Assembly (NCBI RefSeq): GCF_010682065.1
Contig: NZ_JAAGWG010000011.1
Coordinates: 1 to 64,000, forward strand
Length of the DNA: 64,000 nt
DNA from: Blastococcus saxobsidens
Lineage (GTDB): Bacteria; Actinomycetota; Actinomycetes; Mycobacteriales; Geodermatophilaceae
Direction of reading: 5' to 3'
In this document: positions 8,608 to 22,943 of the stretch, piece by piece
Layout: the number at the start of each line of letters is the position of its first letter
Numbering within the stretch: the stretch's first letter is position 1
Notes under the pieces: generated by a model
Told to the model about the DNA's origin: nothing
The model's input: the letters and a program-made list of their open reading frames with translations, nothing else
The model's database searches: none
Position numbers and translations under genes: made by a program

Positions 8608-9735
8608 TCAGCGGTCGGCGTCGGTGTAGACGATCATCCCGCGGATGTTCTTGCCGTCGCGCATGTCCTGGTAGCCCTGGTTGACGTCCTCCAGCGAGTA
8701 CTTCGTCGTCACCAGCTCGTCGAGCTTCAGCTGGCCCTCCTGGTAGAGCGAGAGCAGCTCCGGGATGGCGTTGCGCGGGGCCAGGCCGCCGAAGATGGCG
8801 CCCTGCAGGTCCTTCTGCAGGAGGGTGAGCTCGAAGAGGCTGAGCGTCACGTCGACGTTGGCGTAGTTGCCCATGCCGGTGACGACGGCGCGGCCGCCCT
8901 TGCCGGTGACGCTGAGCGCCGCGGCGATGTCCTCGCCCTGGATGTCGCCGACGGTGATGATCGTCTTCTCCGCCATCCGGCCCCAGGTGAGCTCGTTGAT
9001 GGCCGGGGCGGCCTCCTCCATGGTCGCGAAGGTGTGCGTGGCGCCGAGGTCCATGGCCCACTCGCGCTTCCGCGCCACGGGCTCGACGACCATGACCCGC
9101 TTGGCACCGGCCGCGGCCGCGCCCTGGACGGCGTTCATGCCCACACCGCCGGCACCCATGACCACGACGTTCTCGCCGGGGCGCACGTCGGCGACCTTGG
9201 TGGCCGAACCCCAGCCGGTGGTGACGCCGCAGCCGACGAGCGCGGCGACCTCCAGCGGGATGTCCGGCTCGATCCGCACCACGGATGCCTGGTGCACGGT
9301 GATGTAGGGCGAGAAGGTGCCGAGCAGGCACATCGGGACGACGTCCTTGCCCTTGGCCTGGACCCGGTAGGTGCCGTCGGAGATCGCCATGCCGGTGAGC
9401 AGGTTCGCGCCGAGGTCGCAGAGGTTCTGCTGGCCGCGCGAACAGGGCGGGCACTGCCCGCAGGCGGGGATGAACGCCGTGACGACGTGGTCGCCCTCCT
9501 TGAGCCCGGTCACGCCCGGCCCGACCTTGGTGACGACGCCGGCGCCCTCGTGCCCGCCGATCACCGGGTAGGAGGCGACCGGGGTGCCGCCGGTGACCAG
9601 GTGCTCGTCGCTGTGGCACAGCCCGGAGGCGGCGAGCTGGACCTGCACCTCGCCCGCGCGCGGATCACCCAGCTCGATCTCCTCGATCGACCATTCCTCG
9701 CCCACGCCCCACAAGATCGCGCCCTTGGTCTTCAA
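8608..9735 (-). CDS. NDMA-dependent (mycofactocin-linked) zinc alcohol dehydrogenase
   Basis: A 375-residue medium-chain dehydrogenase. The start is TTG, supported by GGAGAGGAA a few bases upstream; no ATG fits. Catalytic-zinc ligands lie in GLCHSDEH and GGHEGAG, structural-zinc cysteines in CGQCPPCSRGQQNLC, and the Rossmann motif GAGGVGMNA in the middle. Overall features match the NDMA-dependent alcohol dehydrogenase family. Its members hold NAD(H) tightly and need an external electron carrier, and their genomic distribution follows mycofactocin. The mycofactocin genes begin 3 kb away, so this is a likely client enzyme oxidising a primary alcohol. The actual alcohol is not evident from sequence. 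Confidence 0.85.
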   Translation of the reverse strand: MKTKGAILWGVGEEWSIEEIELGDPRAGEVQVQLAASGLCHSDEHLVTGGTPVASYPVIGGHEGAGVVTKVGPGVTGLKEGDHVVTAFIPACGQCPPCSRGQQNLCDLGANLLTGMAISDGTYRVQAKGKDVVPMCLLGTFSPYITVHQASVVRIEPDIPLEVAALVGCGVTTGWGSATKVADVRPGENVVVMGAGGVGMNAVQGAAAAGAKRVMVVEPVARKREWAMDLGATHTFATMEEAAPAINELTWGRMAEKTIITVGDIQGEDIAAALSVTGKGGRAVVTGMGNYANVDVTLSLFELTLLQKDLQGAIFGGLAPRNAIPELLSLYQEGQLKLDELVTTKYSLEDVNQGYQDMRDGKNIRGMIVYTDADR

Positions 9736-12629: not shown

Positions 12630-13835
12630 CTAGGACTCCTCGCTCGCGCGCGCGACCGCGGTCTCGCCCAGGCGCTGCTCGAAGCCGGACGGGACCACGA
12701 GGTCGTCCCGGCACAGGTCGGTGACGTTCGGCCGGCCGAGGCCGACCATCGCCGAGCCGAGGCCGTCGCGCATCAGGTCCAGCACGTTCTCCACGCCGGC
12801 CTGCCCGTTGGCCGCGAGGCCCCACAGGTAGGCGCGGCCGATCATCACGGCCCTGGCGCCCAGGGCCAGTGCCTTGGCGACGTCGCCACCGCGGCGGATG
12901 CCGCCGTCGAGCAGCACCTCGATCTGGTCGCCGACCGCCTCGGCGACGGCGGGCAGCGCCCGGATGGACGCCGGCGTGCCGTCGAGGTTGTTGCCGCCGT
13001 GGTTGGAGACCGAGATCGCGGTGACGCCGGCGTCCACGGCGCGCTTGGCGTCGTCGACCCGCATGACGCCCTTGAGCATGAACGGGCCGTCCCACTGCGA
13101 GCGCAGCCAGGCGACGTCCTCCCAGGTGGGCATCGGGGAGTTCATCCACATGCCGTAGGCGCCGAAGAAGGTGGGCGCCGGCTCGCCGGGGGTGGCGACC
13201 ATGTTCGGGACGGTGAGGTCGGGCAGCTGCCTGGTCTTCGCGAAGTCCCACAGCCAGCCCGGCTTGAGCGCCACCTGCGGGGCGTAGCGGCGCACCGCCT
13301 CGAAGTTGACCTTCTCGGGGATGAACGGGCTGCCCCAGTCGCGGCCGTAGGCGAAGGACCAGTCGAGGGTGGCGATCAGGCCGACGGCGCCGGCCCGCCT
13401 GGCCCGCTCCATGCGGGCGAGCATCTCCTCGCGGCTGCCGACCCAGTAGACCTGGAAGAAGGTCTGCGGGTTGGCCGCGACGACCTCCTCGATCGGCTTG
13501 CTGGCGAAGGAGGACAGGCCCATGGCCACCCCGCGGGCCGCGGCGGCGCGCGCGACGGCGACCTCCCCGTCGGGGTGCACGGCCTGGACGCCGGTCGGGC
13601 TGATCATCACCGGCATCGACATCTGCTGGCCCATGACCGTGACGCCCATGTTGCGCTCGTTGGCCAGGCCCGCGGTGTGCGGCGCGAAGCCGATCTCGCC
13701 GAAGGCGGTGGTGTTGTCCTCGACGGTCAGGCCGCGCTCGGAGCCGGCGACCAGTGCGCCGTACACGCCCTTGGGCAGCCGTCGCTTCGCGCGGCGCTGC
13801 GCCTCGGCCACCGTCTCGAACCACGCGTTCGCCAT
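12630..13835 (-). CDS. mftD: Mycofactocin biosynthesis FMN-dependent oxidase MftD
   Basis: A 401-residue lactate-oxidase-fold FMN enzyme. The ATG before ANAWFETVAEAQRRAKRRLP is chosen because this is the family's usual N-terminus and GGGAGA precedes it. Visible motifs: SPTGVQAVHPDGE, LSSFASKPIEEV, the active-site SVSNHGGNNLDG near residue 275, and LLDGGIRRGGDVAKAL with GRAYLWGLA at the phosphate site. MftD oxidatively deaminates the AHDP intermediate to premycofactocin, creating the alpha-keto amide that is the redox centre. Unlike many loci, mftD here is on the opposite strand to mftABC, downstream of mftR. A palindrome identical in arms to that at mftA covers its upstream region. Confidence 0.92.
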   Translation of the reverse strand: MANAWFETVAEAQRRAKRRLPKGVYGALVAGSERGLTVEDNTTAFGEIGFAPHTAGLANERNMGVTVMGQQMSMPVMISPTGVQAVHPDGEVAVARAAAARGVAMGLSSFASKPIEEVVAANPQTFFQVYWVGSREEMLARMERARRAGAVGLIATLDWSFAYGRDWGSPFIPEKVNFEAVRRYAPQVALKPGWLWDFAKTRQLPDLTVPNMVATPGEPAPTFFGAYGMWMNSPMPTWEDVAWLRSQWDGPFMLKGVMRVDDAKRAVDAGVTAISVSNHGGNNLDGTPASIRALPAVAEAVGDQIEVLLDGGIRRGGDVAKALALGARAVMIGRAYLWGLAANGQAGVENVLDLMRDGLGSAMVGLGRPNVTDLCRDDLVVPSGFEQRLGETAVARASEES

Positions 13836-13870
13836 GCCGGTCTCCCGTCGTCCGCCCCGCCGGAGCAGCG

Positions 13871-13891
13871 GTGGCACTCAGTGCCACAGTA
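13871..13891 (-). promoter_or_regulatory. mftD promoter -10 box with overlapping palindromic operator
   Basis: On the minus strand a TACTGT -10 box (13891-13886) is followed immediately by a perfect 17-bp palindrome, 13871-13887, with arms GTGGCACT / AGTGCCAC around one base. The core TGGCAC-N3-GTGCCA is the same as at the mftA promoter. A bound repressor would cover the transcription start of mftD. No good -35 hexamer is visible. MftR as the binder is inferred from gene context. Confidence 0.7.
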
Positions 13892-13928
13892 GCGGGACTG
13901 CGGAGACGCACGCCACAGCCTGGGCGGC

Positions 13929-14513
13929 TCAGCCCCTCAGGCTGGGGAATCCGGCGGCCAGCTCGTCGAACGTGCGGCGCAGCTGGTCCCCGAGGGCGGT
14001 GCGCTCGTCGGCCAGCCAGGCGGCGAAGGCGGTGGTGGCGGCCGCCCGGGTGCTGGCGGCGACCAGCCGCGGCAGCAGGCCGGCAGGGTCGTCCGCCGTG
14101 CTGCGCGCGACGTGCTCGGCGACGACGCGGTCGATCTCGGCGTACCGCAGCTGGGAGTGGGCCTGCAGCGCCGGCTCGGTGAGGATCAGCCGCATCCGCT
14201 GCCGGAGCGCCGGCAGGTCGTCGTCCCGGTAGTCGTTGACCTCGGCGTAGGCGGCGCAGACGGTGGCCAGCACCGGTCGTCCGCCGTCGGCCGAGTGCAG
14301 CAGCCGGTCCAGCCGCTCGACGTGCGCGGCGAAGTCGCCCCAGACGGCGTCGGCCTTCGCCGGGTAGTAGCGGAAGAACGTGCGGCGGCTGATGCCGGCG
14401 GCGTCGGCCACCTCGTCGGCGGTGACCGCGTCGAAGCCACGGGAGGTGAAGAGCTCGAGAGCCGCTCGCTCCACGCGGTCCCGCGCGGCCTCGCCGGTCG
14501 CGGTCTGCGTCAT
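13929..14513 (-). CDS. mftR: TetR-family mycofactocin regulator MftR
   Basis: 194 residues from the ATG before TQTATGEAARDRV; longer in-frame starts would add an unlikely Arg-rich leader. The N-terminal helix-turn-helix reads DAVTADEVADAAGISRRTFFRYYPAKADAVWGDF at about residues 27-60, written here only to fix the position; FRYYPAKA is typical of MftR-type TetR proteins. The C-terminal domain binds a ligand; in mycobacteria MftR responds to long-chain acyl-CoA. It is divergent from mftA across a 128-bp spacer that holds one palindromic operator, with another 41 bp beyond its 3' end before mftD. Autoregulation and control of both arms are inferred. Confidence 0.87.
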   Translation of the reverse strand: MTQTATGEAARDRVERAALELFTSRGFDAVTADEVADAAGISRRTFFRYYPAKADAVWGDFAAHVERLDRLLHSADGGRPVLATVCAAYAEVNDYRDDDLPALRQRMRLILTEPALQAHSQLRYAEIDRVVAEHVARSTADDPAGLLPRLVAASTRAAATTAFAAWLADERTALGDQLRRTFDELAAGFPSLRG

Positions 14514-14572
14514 GCGCCCATCCTGCCGGGCGGCGGCGGGTGCGCGATGCTTTCCGCATCCGACCGGGCTGC

Positions 14573-14601
14573 TTGCTCCTGGCACTGGGTGCCACTAGCC
14601 T
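14573..14601 (+). promoter_or_regulatory. mftA promoter with operator between -35 and -10
   Basis: TTGCTC (14573-14578) and TAGCCT (14596-14601) are separated by exactly 17 bp. The spacer contains TGGCAC-TGG-GTGCCA (14580-14594), a 15-bp palindrome whose arms equal those at the mftD promoter. This is the classic geometry for repression by a dimeric TetR protein. The promoter assignment rests on motif spacing only. Confidence 0.75.
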
Positions 14602-14641
14602 CGGCCCGACCAGTCAGTGACCTCGCTCACCAGGAGTGCAG

Positions 14642-14764
14642 ATGCCCGAGCAGACCGCCGCCGTGGACACCGCCGCCGTCGAGGCCCCCGCGGCCGAGGA
14701 GGCCCTGGTCGAGGAGTCGCTGGTCGAGGAGGTCTCGATCGACGGCATGTGCGGCGTCTACTGA
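14642..14764 (+). CDS. mftA: Mycofactocin precursor peptide MftA
   Basis: A 40-residue ribosomally made precursor. The ATG follows AGGAG (14632-14636) by 5 nt. The leader is acidic, with Glu/Ala/Val repeats and LVEESLVEEVS. It ends in the invariant core IDGMCGVY, whose terminal Val-Tyr pair is decarboxylated and crosslinked by MftC and then released by MftE to become the cofactor. The leader, here extended at its N-terminus by an Ala-rich stretch compared with mycobacterial MftA, is bound by MftB. mftB starts 13 bp downstream. Confidence 0.97.
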   Translation: MPEQTAAVDTAAVEAPAAEEALVEESLVEEVSIDGMCGVY

Positions 14765-14777
14765 GTCGCAGGCTCCG

Positions 14778-15071
14778 ATGACCGCTCCGGTGGCCGCCGT
14801 GTTCGACCCGGCGCTGCCCTGGCAGAAGGCCCGGTCGGTCGCCCTGCGGCCGGAGCCGTTCGGCGCGCTGGTCTACCACTTCGGCAACCGGAAGCTCTCC
14901 TTCCTGAAGTCGAAGATGCTGGTCGCAGTCGTGACCTCGCTGGCCGAGCACCCCAGCGCCGAGGCGACGCTGGTCGCCTGCGGCGTGCCGGAGACCCAGC
15001 GCTCCAGCTACCTGAAGGCGCTCGCCGACCTCGCCCGCTCGCAGATGATCGAACTCCGGAGCGCCTCATGA
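14778..15071 (+). CDS. mftB: Mycofactocin precursor-binding chaperone MftB
   Basis: A 97-residue RiPP recognition element protein. It binds the MftA leader and presents the core to the radical SAM enzyme. The sequence has the family pattern: ALRPEPFGALVYHFGNRKLSFL at about residues 22-43 (given only to mark the strand-loop-strand), then a winged-helix-like C-terminal half ending in LARSQMIEL. The ATG is placed by spacing from mftA. Its stop overlaps the start of mftC (ATGA), implying translational coupling and roughly equal dosage with MftC. Confidence 0.93.
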   Translation: MTAPVAAVFDPALPWQKARSVALRPEPFGALVYHFGNRKLSFLKSKMLVAVVTSLAEHPSAEATLVACGVPETQRSSYLKALADLARSQMIELRSAS

Positions 15072-16303
15072 CCGCCGTCCTGCCGTCCCGACCCACCGCC
15101 CCCCAGCGTCCCGTCGGCGGCCGGCTGATCGACCAGTTCGAGTACGGGCTGGACGCCCCGATCTGCCTGACATGGGAGCTCACCTACGCCTGCAACCTGG
15201 CGTGCGCGCACTGCCTGTCCTCCTCCGGCCGGCGCGACCCGCGCGAGCTGTCCACCGCCGAGGCCGAGGCGGTCATCGACGAGCTGCAGCGGATGCAGGT
15301 GTTCTACGTCAACGTCGGCGGCGGCGAGCCGACCGTGCGGCCGGACTTCTGGCACCTGCTCGACTACGCCATCGGCCACGACGTCGGCGTCAAGTTCTCC
15401 ACCAACGGCATCAAGCTGGACAAGACCCGCGCCGCCCAGCTGGCCCGCACCGACTACGTCGACGTGCAGATCTCCCTGGACGGCGCCACTGCCGAGGTGA
15501 ACGACCGGGTGCGCGGCACCGGCTCCTACGCCACGGCCATCCGTGCCCTGGAGAACCTGGCCGAGGCCGGGATGAAGGACTTCAAGGTCTCCGTCGTCGT
15601 CACCCGCGAGAACGCCGGGCAGCTCGACGCGTTCAAGGCGCTCACCGACTCCTTCGGCGCCCAGCTGCGGATCACCCGGCTGCGGCCGTCCGGCCGCGGG
15701 GCGGACGTCTGGGACGAGCTGCACCCGACCATGGCCCAGCAGAAGGACCTGTACCAGTGGCTGCTCGCCAACGGCGACGGCGTGCTGACCGGAGACTCGT
15801 TCTTCCACCTGTCCGCGTTCGGCGAGGCGCTTCCGGGCCTCAACCTGTGCGGCGCGGGGCGCGTGGTCTGCCTGATCGACCCGGTGGGCGACGTCTACGC
15901 GTGCCCGTTCGCGATCCACGAGAACTTCCTCGCCGGCAACGTGCGCGACGAGGGCGGCTTCCAGCGGGTGTGGCAGTCCTCGGAGCTGTTCGCCGACCTG
16001 CGCAACCCGCAGACCGGCGGCGCCTGCACCAAGTGCGCGCACTTCGACGCCTGCCGCGGCGGCTGCATGGCGGCCAAGTTCTTCACCGGCCTGCCGCTGG
16101 ACGGCCCCGATCCCGAGTGCGTGCAGGGCTACGGGGAGACCGCCCTGGCTGCCCGGGACCTGGAGCTGGTCACCCCGCGCAGCCACATCGACCACTCGCA
16201 CACCGGCCCCGTCCGCGGCCAGCCGACGCTGCTGGGCATGCCCGCCGTCCCGCCCGCGAAGATCTGCGACGAGTCCCCGCTGGCGGGCTTCCCGGGGGCC
16301 TGA
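15068..16303 (+). CDS. mftC: Mycofactocin radical SAM maturase MftC
   Basis: A 411-residue radical SAM/SPASM enzyme. The 4Fe-4S cluster that cleaves SAM is bound by C42, C46 and C49 in TYACNLACAHC. GGGEPTV supplies the SAM-binding glycine motif. The C-terminal SPASM region holds auxiliary-cluster cysteines: CGAGRVVC, DVYACPF, then CTKCAHFDACRGGC and a final PDPEC. MftC performs two steps on the Val-Tyr end of MftA: oxidative decarboxylation of tyrosine, then redox-neutral C-C crosslinking to valine. The length is normal for the family. It is translationally coupled to mftB. Confidence 0.96.
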   Translation: MTAVLPSRPTAPQRPVGGRLIDQFEYGLDAPICLTWELTYACNLACAHCLSSSGRRDPRELSTAEAEAVIDELQRMQVFYVNVGGGEPTVRPDFWHLLDYAIGHDVGVKFSTNGIKLDKTRAAQLARTDYVDVQISLDGATAEVNDRVRGTGSYATAIRALENLAEAGMKDFKVSVVVTRENAGQLDAFKALTDSFGAQLRITRLRPSGRGADVWDELHPTMAQQKDLYQWLLANGDGVLTGDSFFHLSAFGEALPGLNLCGAGRVVCLIDPVGDVYACPFAIHENFLAGNVRDEGGFQRVWQSSELFADLRNPQTGGACTKCAHFDACRGGCMAAKFFTGLPLDGPDPECVQGYGETALAARDLELVTPRSHIDHSHTGPVRGQPTLLGMPAVPPAKICDESPLAGFPGA

Positions 16304-19127: not shown

Positions 19128-19820
19128 AACCTCCTCGGTGGCACCACCTGGCAGGAGATCCCCGAGCGGCCGCTGCTCGTGGTCCCGCTCGGCGCGGTGG
19201 AGCAGCACGGCCCGCACCTGCCGCTGGCCACCGACACCCGCACGGCGGAGACGGTGGCCCGGGCCGCGGCGCCCGGGATGGACGGTGCGCTGCTGGCCCC
19301 GGCGATCGCCTACGGGGCCAGCGGGGAGCACGAGGGCTTCCCCGGCACGGTCTCGATCGGCACCGAGGCGCTCACGATGTTGTTGGTGGAGTACGGGCGC
19401 TCGGCGTGCCGCTGGGCGGGGCGGCTGCTGGTCGTCAACGGCCACGGCGGCAACTTCTCCGCGCTGCGGGCGGCGGTGCCGCAGCTGCGCGCGGAGGGGC
19501 GGGACGTCGCCTGGTGGCCGTGCGCCGTCCCCGGTGGGGACGCCCACGCCGGACGGGTGGAGACATCACTGATGTTGCACGTGGAACCCGGTGGGGTCCG
19601 GGAGGAGCTGGCCGAGCCGGGGGAGACGGCGCCGCTGCGGGAGCTGCTGCCCCGGATGCGGGCCGAGGGCGTGCGGGCGGTCAGCCCCAACGGGGTGCTC
19701 GGCGACCCGGCCGGCGCGTCGGCGGACGAAGGGGCGGAGCTGGTCGCGGACCTGGCCGGACGGCTGGTCGCGGCGGTGCGGGAGTGGCGGGTGGACCCCG
19801 CCGGGCGGCTCCTGGAGTGA
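19125..19820 (+). CDS. mftE: Mycofactocin precursor peptide peptidase MftE
   Basis: A 231-residue creatininase-family metallopeptidase. Metal-binding motifs are GAVEQHGPHLPLATDT near residue 23, SGEHEGFPGT near 65 and VNGHGGN near 105, plus a C-terminal SPNGVLGDP. MftE removes the two crosslinked C-terminal residues from modified MftA, releasing AHDP for MftD. The length fits the family. In most genomes mftE follows mftD; here it is about 2.8 kb downstream of mftC behind unrelated genes, on the same strand as mftABC, and probably has its own leaderless promoter. Confidence 0.93.
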   Translation: MNLLGGTTWQEIPERPLLVVPLGAVEQHGPHLPLATDTRTAETVARAAAPGMDGALLAPAIAYGASGEHEGFPGTVSIGTEALTMLLVEYGRSACRWAGRLLVVNGHGGNFSALRAAVPQLRAEGRDVAWWPCAVPGGDAHAGRVETSLMLHVEPGGVREELAEPGETAPLRELLPRMRAEGVRAVSPNGVLGDPAGASADEGAELVADLAGRLVAAVREWRVDPAGRLLE

Positions 19821-20932: not shown

Positions 20933-20982
20933 GCCGGGAGCGTGTCGCCGCGGGGTGCGACGGGGAACGAGGAGTGGCATCG

Positions 20983-21537
20983 ATGAGCGGCGGGCCGGCA
21001 CCGCAGGAGGGCTGGCTGGTCGTCGTCGACCTGCAGGACGTGTTCCGCGACGAGGACTCGCCGTGGACCGCTCCCCGGTTCGACGAGGTGCGCCCCCGGA
21101 TCCGTCGGCTGGTCGGGGCGTTCGGCGAGCGCGTCGTCTGGACCCGGTTCATCGCGCCCGGCGAGCCCGTCGGGGCGTGGCAGGACTACTACGAGCAGTA
21201 CGACTTCGCGTTGCAGCCCCCGGACGCCGAGATGTACCGGCTGGTGGAGGACCCGGGCGCGCACCCGGTGGTCGATGCGACGACCTTCGGCAAGTGGGGG
21301 CCGGACCTCGCCGCGGTGGTCGGGCAGGGGCCCCTGACGGTCGTCGGCGTGGCCACGGAGTGCTGCGTGCTCTCCACCGTGCTGCCCGCCGCGGACGCGG
21401 GGATCGCGGTCCGGGTGGTCACCGACGCCTGCGCCGGCGCCGGAGACGAGGAGCACGAGCGGGCGCTGCAGGTCATGGGCGGCTATGCACCGCTGGTGAC
21501 CTTCGCGACCACCGCCGAGGTCCTGGGCGGCGCGTGA
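20983..21537 (+). CDS. Isochorismatase-like cysteine hydrolase
   Basis: 184 residues from the ATG that follows GAGGAG (20969-20974) with 8 nt spacing. The catalytic triad of the family is present: Asp in LVVVDLQDVF (about residue 18), Lys in TFGKWGPD (about 105), and the nucleophilic Cys in GVATECCVLSTVL (about 126). Family members hydrolyse isochorismate, nicotinamide, ureidomalonate-like amides and similar compounds, and the substrate cannot be told from motifs. The stop overlaps the mftF GTG (GTGA), so the two are translationally coupled. It is divergent from an iron-regulated siderophore-binding gene. Confidence 0.85.
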   Translation: MSGGPAPQEGWLVVVDLQDVFRDEDSPWTAPRFDEVRPRIRRLVGAFGERVVWTRFIAPGEPVGAWQDYYEQYDFALQPPDAEMYRLVEDPGAHPVVDATTFGKWGPDLAAVVGQGPLTVVGVATECCVLSTVLPAADAGIAVRVVTDACAGAGDEEHERALQVMGGYAPLVTFATTAEVLGGA

Positions 21538-22943
21538 CCGTCCCGGCTCCCGGCGCGGGGCGGCTGCCCGACGGGTTCGCCGTCCGGCTGGACCCGCGCA
21601 CCCGCCGTCGCGACGGCGGCGCGACCCTGCTCGGCGGTTCGCCGCTGCGGCTGCTGCGGCTGGCGCCGCGGGCCCGGACGCTCCTGGCCGGGGACCGGCT
21701 CGCCGTGCGCGACGCCGTCTCGGCCCAGCTGGCCGCCCGGCTGCTCGACGCCGGGCTGGCGCACCCGGAGCCCGGGCCGTCCCCGGAGCCCGACGTCACG
21801 GTGGTCGTCCCGGTCCGCGACCGGCCCGCCGCGCTCGCCCGGTTGCTCGCCGCGCTCGCCGGGGACCCGGCGACCGCCGCGCTCCCGGTGGTCGTGGTGG
21901 ACGACGGCTCGGCGGAGCCGGTCGCCTCGGCCGGTGCCGCGCGCGTCGTCCGCCATCCCGTCCCCCGGGGACCGGCCGCCGCCCGCAACAGCGGGCTGGC
22001 CGCGGCGACGACGGCGTTCGTCGCCTTCCTCGACTCCGACTGCGTGCCGCGGCCGGGCTGGCTGGACGCGTTGCTGCCGCACCTGGCCGATCCGTCGCTG
22101 GCCGCGGTCGCGCCGCGGATCGTGCCGCTGCCCGGCGCGCGGCGCGGCTGGGTGAGCCCGTACGAGGACCTGGCCTCGGCGCTGGACATGGGGCCGCGGC
22201 CGGCGGCGGTGCGCCCCTCGTCGGCGGTCTCCTACGTCCCCAGCGCGGCCCTGCTGGTGCGCCGCGCGGCCGTGGGCAGCGGCTTCGACGAGGCGATGCG
22301 GGTCGCCGAGGACGTCGACCTCGTGTGGCGGCTGACGGCGGCCGGCTGGCGGGTCCGCTACGAACCGGCGGCCGAGGTGGCGCACGAGCACCCCGCCGCC
22401 CTCGCGGAGTGGCTCCGGCGGCGCGCCTTCTACGGCACCGGCGCCGCGCTCCTGGCGCAGCGGCACGGGGCCGCGGTGTCCCCGCTGGTGATCGCTCCGG
22501 AGACCGGCCTCACCTGGGCGCTGCTGCTGGCCGGCGGGCGGCCGGGCCGGTTGGCCGCCCTCGGGCTGCTCGGCGCCACCGCGGTCCGGCTGACCCGGCG
22601 GCTCCGCCGTCCCGGTGAGCGCGCGCCGGTGGGTCTGGCGGCGGCGCTCACCGCCCGGGGGCTGGTCGCCTCCGGCCGGTCGCTGGCCGGGACCGCCACC
22701 CGGCACCACTGGCCGTTGTCGCTGGTCGCCGCGGTGGTCTCCCGCCGGGCCCGCCGCGGGCTGGGAGCCGTCGCGCTGGCCGACGGGCTGCTCACCTGGT
22801 GGCCGCGGCGTGGCCGGATCGGACCGGTCCGTCACACGGTGGCGCGTCGGCTCGAGGACCTCGCGTACGGCGGCGGGCTCTGGCTGGGCGTCCTGCGCGC
22901 CCGCGACGTCCGCGCCCTCCTGCCGGTCCGCCCGCCCAGCTGA
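21534..22943 (+). CDS. mftF: Mycofactocin glycosyltransferase MftF
   Basis: A 469-residue GT2-family enzyme. The N-terminal lead-in LPDGFAVRLDPRTRRRDGG and LLGGSPLRLLRLAPRA is characteristic of MftF. The GT-A core follows: VTVVVPVRDRP, VVVDDGS, RGPAAARNSG, FLDSDCVP (the DxD-type metal site) and VAEDVDLVWRLTAAGW. The C-terminal third is Arg-rich with hydrophobic segments, suggesting membrane association. MftF adds a beta-1,4-linked oligoglucose chain to mycofactocin, which keeps the cofactor in the cell and makes the form used by dehydrogenases. It is co-translated with the isochorismatase-like hydrolase rather than with other mft genes. Confidence 0.93.
   Translation: MTVPAPGAGRLPDGFAVRLDPRTRRRDGGATLLGGSPLRLLRLAPRARTLLAGDRLAVRDAVSAQLAARLLDAGLAHPEPGPSPEPDVTVVVPVRDRPAALARLLAALAGDPATAALPVVVVDDGSAEPVASAGAARVVRHPVPRGPAAARNSGLAAATTAFVAFLDSDCVPRPGWLDALLPHLADPSLAAVAPRIVPLPGARRGWVSPYEDLASALDMGPRPAAVRPSSAVSYVPSAALLVRRAAVGSGFDEAMRVAEDVDLVWRLTAAGWRVRYEPAAEVAHEHPAALAEWLRRRAFYGTGAALLAQRHGAAVSPLVIAPETGLTWALLLAGGRPGRLAALGLLGATAVRLTRRLRRPGERAPVGLAAALTARGLVASGRSLAGTATRHHWPLSLVAAVVSRRARRGLGAVALADGLLTWWPRRGRIGPVRHTVARRLEDLAYGGGLWLGVLRARDVRALLPVRPPS

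Follow-up and report, generated by a model that had tools for sequence, protein, structure and literature searches.

Conserved palindromes before mftA and mftD point to joint control by the TetR-type regulator MftR in Blastococcus saxobsidens and related Geodermatophilaceae

The closest described system is that of M. smegmatis, where a DNase footprint of MftR before mftA protects TCCATTCTGGCACTCGATGCCATATAT, a stretch that contains TGGCACTCGATGCCA (PMC8728441). According to the same article, transcripts of every mft biosynthetic gene dropped when MftR was overexpressed, and long-chain acyl-CoAs bind the protein, which leads to release and induction. The published operator, Omft, is given as T-N2-GGCA-N5-TGCC-N2-A, and single replacements are reported not to impede binding (data not shown in the article). 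The mycofactocin cluster paper (PMC3023750) describes TIGR03968 as a putative regulator related to TetR, and its main text uses neither the word promoter nor the word operator.

The window analysed here is a stretch of 64,000 nucleotides from Blastococcus saxobsidens. From the mycofactocin cluster set out in PMC3023750, families TIGR03962, TIGR03964 to TIGR03969 and TIGR03989 are present in the window, and TIGR03971 is present in relatives (Table 1). The window resembles the MftR-Omft pair of M. smegmatis in the type of regulator, in the core GGCA-N5-TGCC and in having a site immediately before mftA. However, a single protected region is reported there, whereas the window has a second putative operator on a separate mftD promoter. 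Moreover, the outer T and A of the published Omft are both replaced at the mftA operator, O_A (C and T), and the mftD operator, O_D, retains one of the two (G and A). Because the outer bases differ and single replacements were reported as tolerated, we class O_A and O_D as a variant of Omft. Directly upstream of mftF, an ORF at 20974-21537 gave weak matches to isochorismatase-type families.

Table 1. Genes, putative operators and predicted promoter boxes of the Blastococcus window.
Feature	Coordinates	Strand	Evidence and remarks
NDMA-dependent (mycofactocin-type) alcohol dehydrogenase	8608..9735	-	TIGR03989 600.8 bits; no operator upstream (<=2 mismatches)
mftD, pre-mycofactocin synthase	12630..13835	-	TIGR03966 689.5 bits (cut-off 470.85)
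O_D operator, TGGCACTCAGTGCCA	13872..13886		36 bp before mftD ATG; exact motif match and family conservation
Predicted mftD -10, TACTGT	13886..13891	-	Final base shared with the operator (its base 1)
mftR, TetR-type regulator	13929..14513	-	ATG at 14513; TIGR03968 221 bits
Predicted mftA -35, TTGCTC	14573..14578	+	Sequence and conserved TTG
O_A operator, TGGCACTGGGTGCCA	14580..14594		Between mftA -35 and -10, in the divergent mftR-mftA gap
Predicted mftA -10, TAGCCT	14596..14601	+	17 bp from -35
mftA, precursor peptide, C-terminal IDGMCGVY	14642..14764	+	TIGR03969 48.3 bits; PF23709 52.7 bits
mftB	14778..15071	+	TIGR03967 108.9 bits
mftC, radical SAM maturase	15068..16303	+	TIGR03962 647.6 bits
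mftE (approximate start)	19134..19820	+	TIGR03964 336.6 bits; no operator-like site upstream
mftF (matched part only; true start upstream)	21582..22943	+	TIGR03965 513.8 bits; no operator-like site upstream

The window MftR falls 3.9 bits short of the curated TIGR03968 cut-off of 224.9, against 34 bits for the next family. Two more MftRs of the Geodermatophilaceae also lie just under this cut-off (224.3 bits in G023 and 223.3 for one of those in G105). The Pfam domains TetR_N (PF00440, 48 bits, cut-off 24) and TetR_C_14, the 'MftR C-terminal domain' (PF17754, 104.1 bits, cut-off 22.7), are both found, and the gene is divergent from and adjoins mftA, as expected of MftR. By sequence alone, its closest solved relatives are PDB 2RAE and 8X0A, the former named as the MftR of Rhodococcus jostii RHA1 in PMC8728441. 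Residues were matched to those of the M. smegmatis protein through the motif offset seen in a Mycobacteriaceae locus rather than through an alignment of that protein itself. On this numbering, all 126 MftR rows, of which 109 are distinct, have Arg44, the equivalent of the tested Arg48, and 120 have Arg43. Helix-turn-helix residues important in M. smegmatis are kept or near, window Arg25 corresponding to Arg29 and window Glu34 to Asp38. Asp12 aligns with Asp16 and His64 with His68, Asp being scarce at position 12 (11/126 rows), whereas Ser67, a residue tested for oleoyl-CoA binding in M. smegmatis, is replaced by Ala63; acyl-CoA is therefore at most a candidate effector here.

A scan of the window found TGGCAC-N3-GTGCCA exactly at O_A and O_D, and in the whole 4.09-Mb genome these two sites, before mftA and before mftD, are the only exact ones; a reversed control pattern had zero exact matches in the genome. 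The first-pass annotation had claimed that this core occurs twice in the region, with mftR between the copies, and both statements hold, as does the 17-bp spacing of the mftA boxes around O_A, which can be read directly. It had also placed the mftD site at 13871-13887, abutting the TACTGT box. The site and the box are real, but the core is 15 bp long and the -10 overlaps it by one base; the flanking G13871 and C13887 lengthen the palindrome to 17 bp. With up to three mismatches, the window gave 27 matches against a shuffle mean of 51, i.e. fewer than the shuffles, so only the exact pair stands out. At one mismatch or fewer, four further sites were found in the genome and there was no enrichment (6 forward matches vs 19 for the control). 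A match at 19139 with two mismatches falls within the mftE coding sequence, not upstream of it. The window motif scan found no site before mftE, mftF or the alcohol dehydrogenase, and all three were rejected as regulon members. A further inverted repeat in the mftR-mftA gap, GATGC-N5-GCATC at 14546-14560, was dropped, being near the operator in 2/57 family loci.

At the level of the genus, 23 Blastococcus genomes contained 49 TGRCAC-N3-GTGYCA sites, of which 45 were at mftA or mftD and 4 elsewhere; the reversed control gave 9. The palindrome is thus not frequent at unrelated loci in Blastococcus, the outcome that had been named as damaging to the model, but additional sites were found in other genera. 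There, 81 exact sites were found in 27 genomes (reversed control 10), which is more than the mft genes, and these have been partly classified.

The mftD site was then followed through the family. Genes over the TIGR03966 cut-off were present in 101/112 Geodermatophilaceae genomes as 115 copies, and the census took in every one of these, none skipped or doubled. A perfect TGRCAC-N3-GTGYCA lies within 250 bp upstream of 97 of the 115 copies, while the chance level, for a site with up to one mismatch, was 24/14,420 random 250-bp pieces. The remaining 18 copies had at least three mismatches, and as none had one or two, the site is all-or-none in the family. Nine of these 18 are second paralogues in genomes whose other copy is sited (G011, G023, G039, G040, G053, G058, G080, G088, G105). 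The other nine are in G027, G028, G066, G070-G074 and G094, in which no MftR was found. The second paralogues without operator are at loci L087, L159, L169, L188, L198, L390, L394, L396 and L397.

Of the sited copies, 40 were fetched together with mftR or mftC, for 35 neither gene was present in a locus of 6 kb or more, and the other 22 came from shorter pieces. The neighbourhoods of displaced mftD fall into several groups with no genes in common between them, two each in Geodermatophilus and Modestobacter and one each in Klenkia, Goekera and Trujillonella; single genes of the two Modestobacter groups recur beside copies of other families. Most mftD sites read TGGCACT-S-AGTGCCA, with seven of seven arm pairs matched in 67/97 vs 7/55 at mftA, and they are more symmetric than the mftA sites (Mann-Whitney, 1e-12, ignoring relatedness). 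If more symmetric sites bind more strongly, repression would be tighter at mftD than at mftA, and MftD may be the step under the strictest control and the last to be released. In six Geodermatophilus mftA sites (L100, L102, L105, L107, L110, L113) the last operator base is T, not A (GTGYCT).

A generic scan for sigma-70 consensus promoters and terminators found nothing in 13500-15000. Despite this, both predicted boxes, at mftA and at mftD, are conserved in relatives. At mftA, the operator lies between TTGNNN and TANNNT in 57/57 distinct Geodermatophilaceae sites, a smaller set that takes in only mftA loci with a site (<=1 mismatch; 4/59 family mftA loci are without one), with copies having less than 200 bp upstream or the same start sequence left out and mftA starts estimated by script. 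The spacer in this set is N17 (40) or N18 (17), and the TTG occupies one of two neighbouring registers in all 57. At mftD, 63/97 sited family copies have a TANNNT box in which the final T doubles as operator base 1, and 34/97 lack it; in an earlier, smaller set it was found in 57/78, and no other scanned register had it. The placing of the operators on promoters, which had been proposed for this one locus, is therefore a conserved overlap, and the promoter model is supported because the boxes are conserved around the operators in relatives. As mftR and mftD are co-directional in the window, mftD could also be transcribed by read-through.

Sites and regulator were also found to come and go together. 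Fifteen Geodermatophilaceae genomes were searched whole for MftR. The six with MftR (TIGR03968 224.3-247.9 bits) all have a sited mftD, and the nine without it (best match 34.9-94 bits) have none, where three of the nine are 70-81% complete, making absence less sure there, and seven were searched after their mftD had proved unsited. In eight of these nine, TGRCAC-N3-GTGYCA occurs nowhere in the genome; the ninth, G071, has a single site, on a different contig from its mftC and mftD. Across mftC loci, MftR and an mftA operator occurred together in 99, MftR only in 3, the operator only in 9 and neither in 11 (Fisher, 3e-8), with an MftR profile built from the same loci and covering the fetched pieces, and a chance level at the looser site threshold of 271/4,352 random pieces. 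In G015 (L079), of the genus Blastococcus, MftR is present and the mftA site has decayed.

Outside the family, 40 regions, chosen among 43 order-level mftD loci for their spread over families, were taken together with the best 80 of a longer list. Copies were called detached when no mft gene on the same strand ended within 900 bp upstream, and the counts of in-run and detached copies come from smaller sets, without copies having less than 200 bp upstream or the same start sequence. Among the matches listed, a site (<=1 mismatch) was found in 0/69 mftD copies standing in a run behind mftC, mftD, mftE or mftF; one of the 69 is in the Geodermatophilaceae and one has two mismatches upstream. For detached mftD outside the family the figure is 14/28, again among the matches listed. 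Sited detached copies include those of Amycolatopsis, Pseudonocardia, Saccharopolyspora, Herbiconiux, Compostimonas and Acidiferrimicrobium, and MftR was over cut-off in 7/7 checked genomes with a sited detached copy. The 14 unsited detached copies include L264, which has a site with two mismatches. In the six genomes checked for these, MftR was over cut-off in G241, G308, G132 and G123, matched more weakly in G335 (175.8 bits) and was not seen above 77 bits in G149. Some copies are detached by definition and still in order behind mftC, namely L261 and L355 (unsited) and L324 and L347 (sited). On these genomic comparisons, the rule that a displaced mftD carries an operator is firm in the Geodermatophilaceae and only partial outside.

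Taken together, these data make it highly probable that both palindromes are operators of one trans-acting TetR-type repressor, MftR, by which the mftA and mftD promoters would be switched together. The first-pass annotation is supported in this, and the case is stronger than it first stated: one regulator on both arms is strongly supported by the confinement of almost all genus sites to mft genes, the conserved promoter overlap, the operator kept by displaced mftD and the joint absence of sites and MftR. The regulator can be named on more than proximity because the M. smegmatis MftR footprint contains TGGCACTCGATGCCA (PMC8728441). MftR would be encoded by the gene between the two operators. 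A dimer at O_A would fill the spacer between the mftA -35 and -10 and so exclude RNA polymerase from the mftABC promoter; as O_A is also 66 bp before mftR, autoregulation is possible. A dimer at O_D would sit over the last part of the -10 and over the presumed mftD start, blocking that promoter. Two oppositely facing promoters would in this way be switched jointly by one protein acting in trans, and we infer both binding and repression by MftR in Blastococcus.

The sites found in other genera bear on whether another TetR-family protein could be the main binder, the core being a TetR-type operator recognised by several regulators. Sites before NDMA-type alcohol dehydrogenases of Modestobacter and Geodermatophilus were rejected as MftR targets, as in 10/10 fetched loci (L104, L112, L115, L172-L177, L183) a TetR gene of one other type, with a different recognition helix, is nearby; the L059 site likewise adjoins another TetR gene. 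In L184 (2481-3149, minus strand, 207 bits) and L109 (6479-7225, plus strand, 191 bits), a gene with a match to the MftR profile built in the present analysis adjoins a palindrome outside the mft cluster, and these genes are possibly MftR paralogues with operators of their own. The L184 site belongs to a set preceding genes for mycofactocin-coupled SDR enzymes, with four loci in Klenkia (L184-L187) and one in Geodermatophilus (L167), where the SDR calls rest on the TIGR03971 cut-off for L167, L184 and L185 and on similarity for L186 and L187. It has an mftA-like promoter, TTGCCC-18-TAACGT, with the MftR-like gene on its other side, and its binder could be that paralogue; the other four SDR-site loci (L167, L185-L187) had no match to the MftR profile. 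For the mft sites themselves, however, a different main binder is very improbable: in Blastococcus the palindrome is almost confined to mft genes, it is missing where MftR is missing, and the published footprint belongs to MftR (PMC8728441). A palindrome TGGCACGGGGTGCCA recurs in Modestobacter (L178-L181), within a longer palindrome in 3/4 of the loci and not near mft genes.

MftR might also bind both sites and activate, or act both ways, as position alone is no proof of sign and there are activators that bind between the two promoter boxes. Promoters of the MerR type have an over-long spacer, but that of mftA is a normal 17-18 bp. Overexpressed MftR moreover lowers the mft biosynthetic transcripts in M. 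smegmatis (PMC8728441), and we regard activation as very improbable. That the inverted repeats are RNA hairpins of a leader or attenuator, rather than protein sites, is hardly credible. At mftD, the repeat and the beginning of the transcript would overlap, as such a reading needs, but the mftA copy is upstream of its own -10 and would lie outside a transcript started there. Furthermore, sequence and promoter register are conserved, not pairing alone, and the generic scan of 13500-15000 found no terminator-like site.

Within the open-licence literature searched, an MftR operator was found only in PMC8728441, and no report was found of an operator on a detached mftD. MftR and its mftA operator are thus already known from mycobacteria; what appears to be new, within these searches, is that mftD has a putative operator of its own, together with the way this site behaves across the family. 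More tentatively, and with somewhat less than even confidence, MftR may govern a scattered regulon rather than one operon, the operator staying with mftD wherever it lies and, in some genera, standing before mycofactocin-using enzymes, so that the cofactor would be induced jointly with the enzymes that use it. The two-operator model itself makes a traceable regulon of a repressor that had been described at a single promoter in mycobacteria. An operator that is kept by a relocated mftD and missing where the repressor is missing provides natural evidence of MftR acting in trans, and the motif may be used to find co-regulated mycofactocin-dependent enzymes, which bears on when bacteria need mycofactocin, a redox cofactor.
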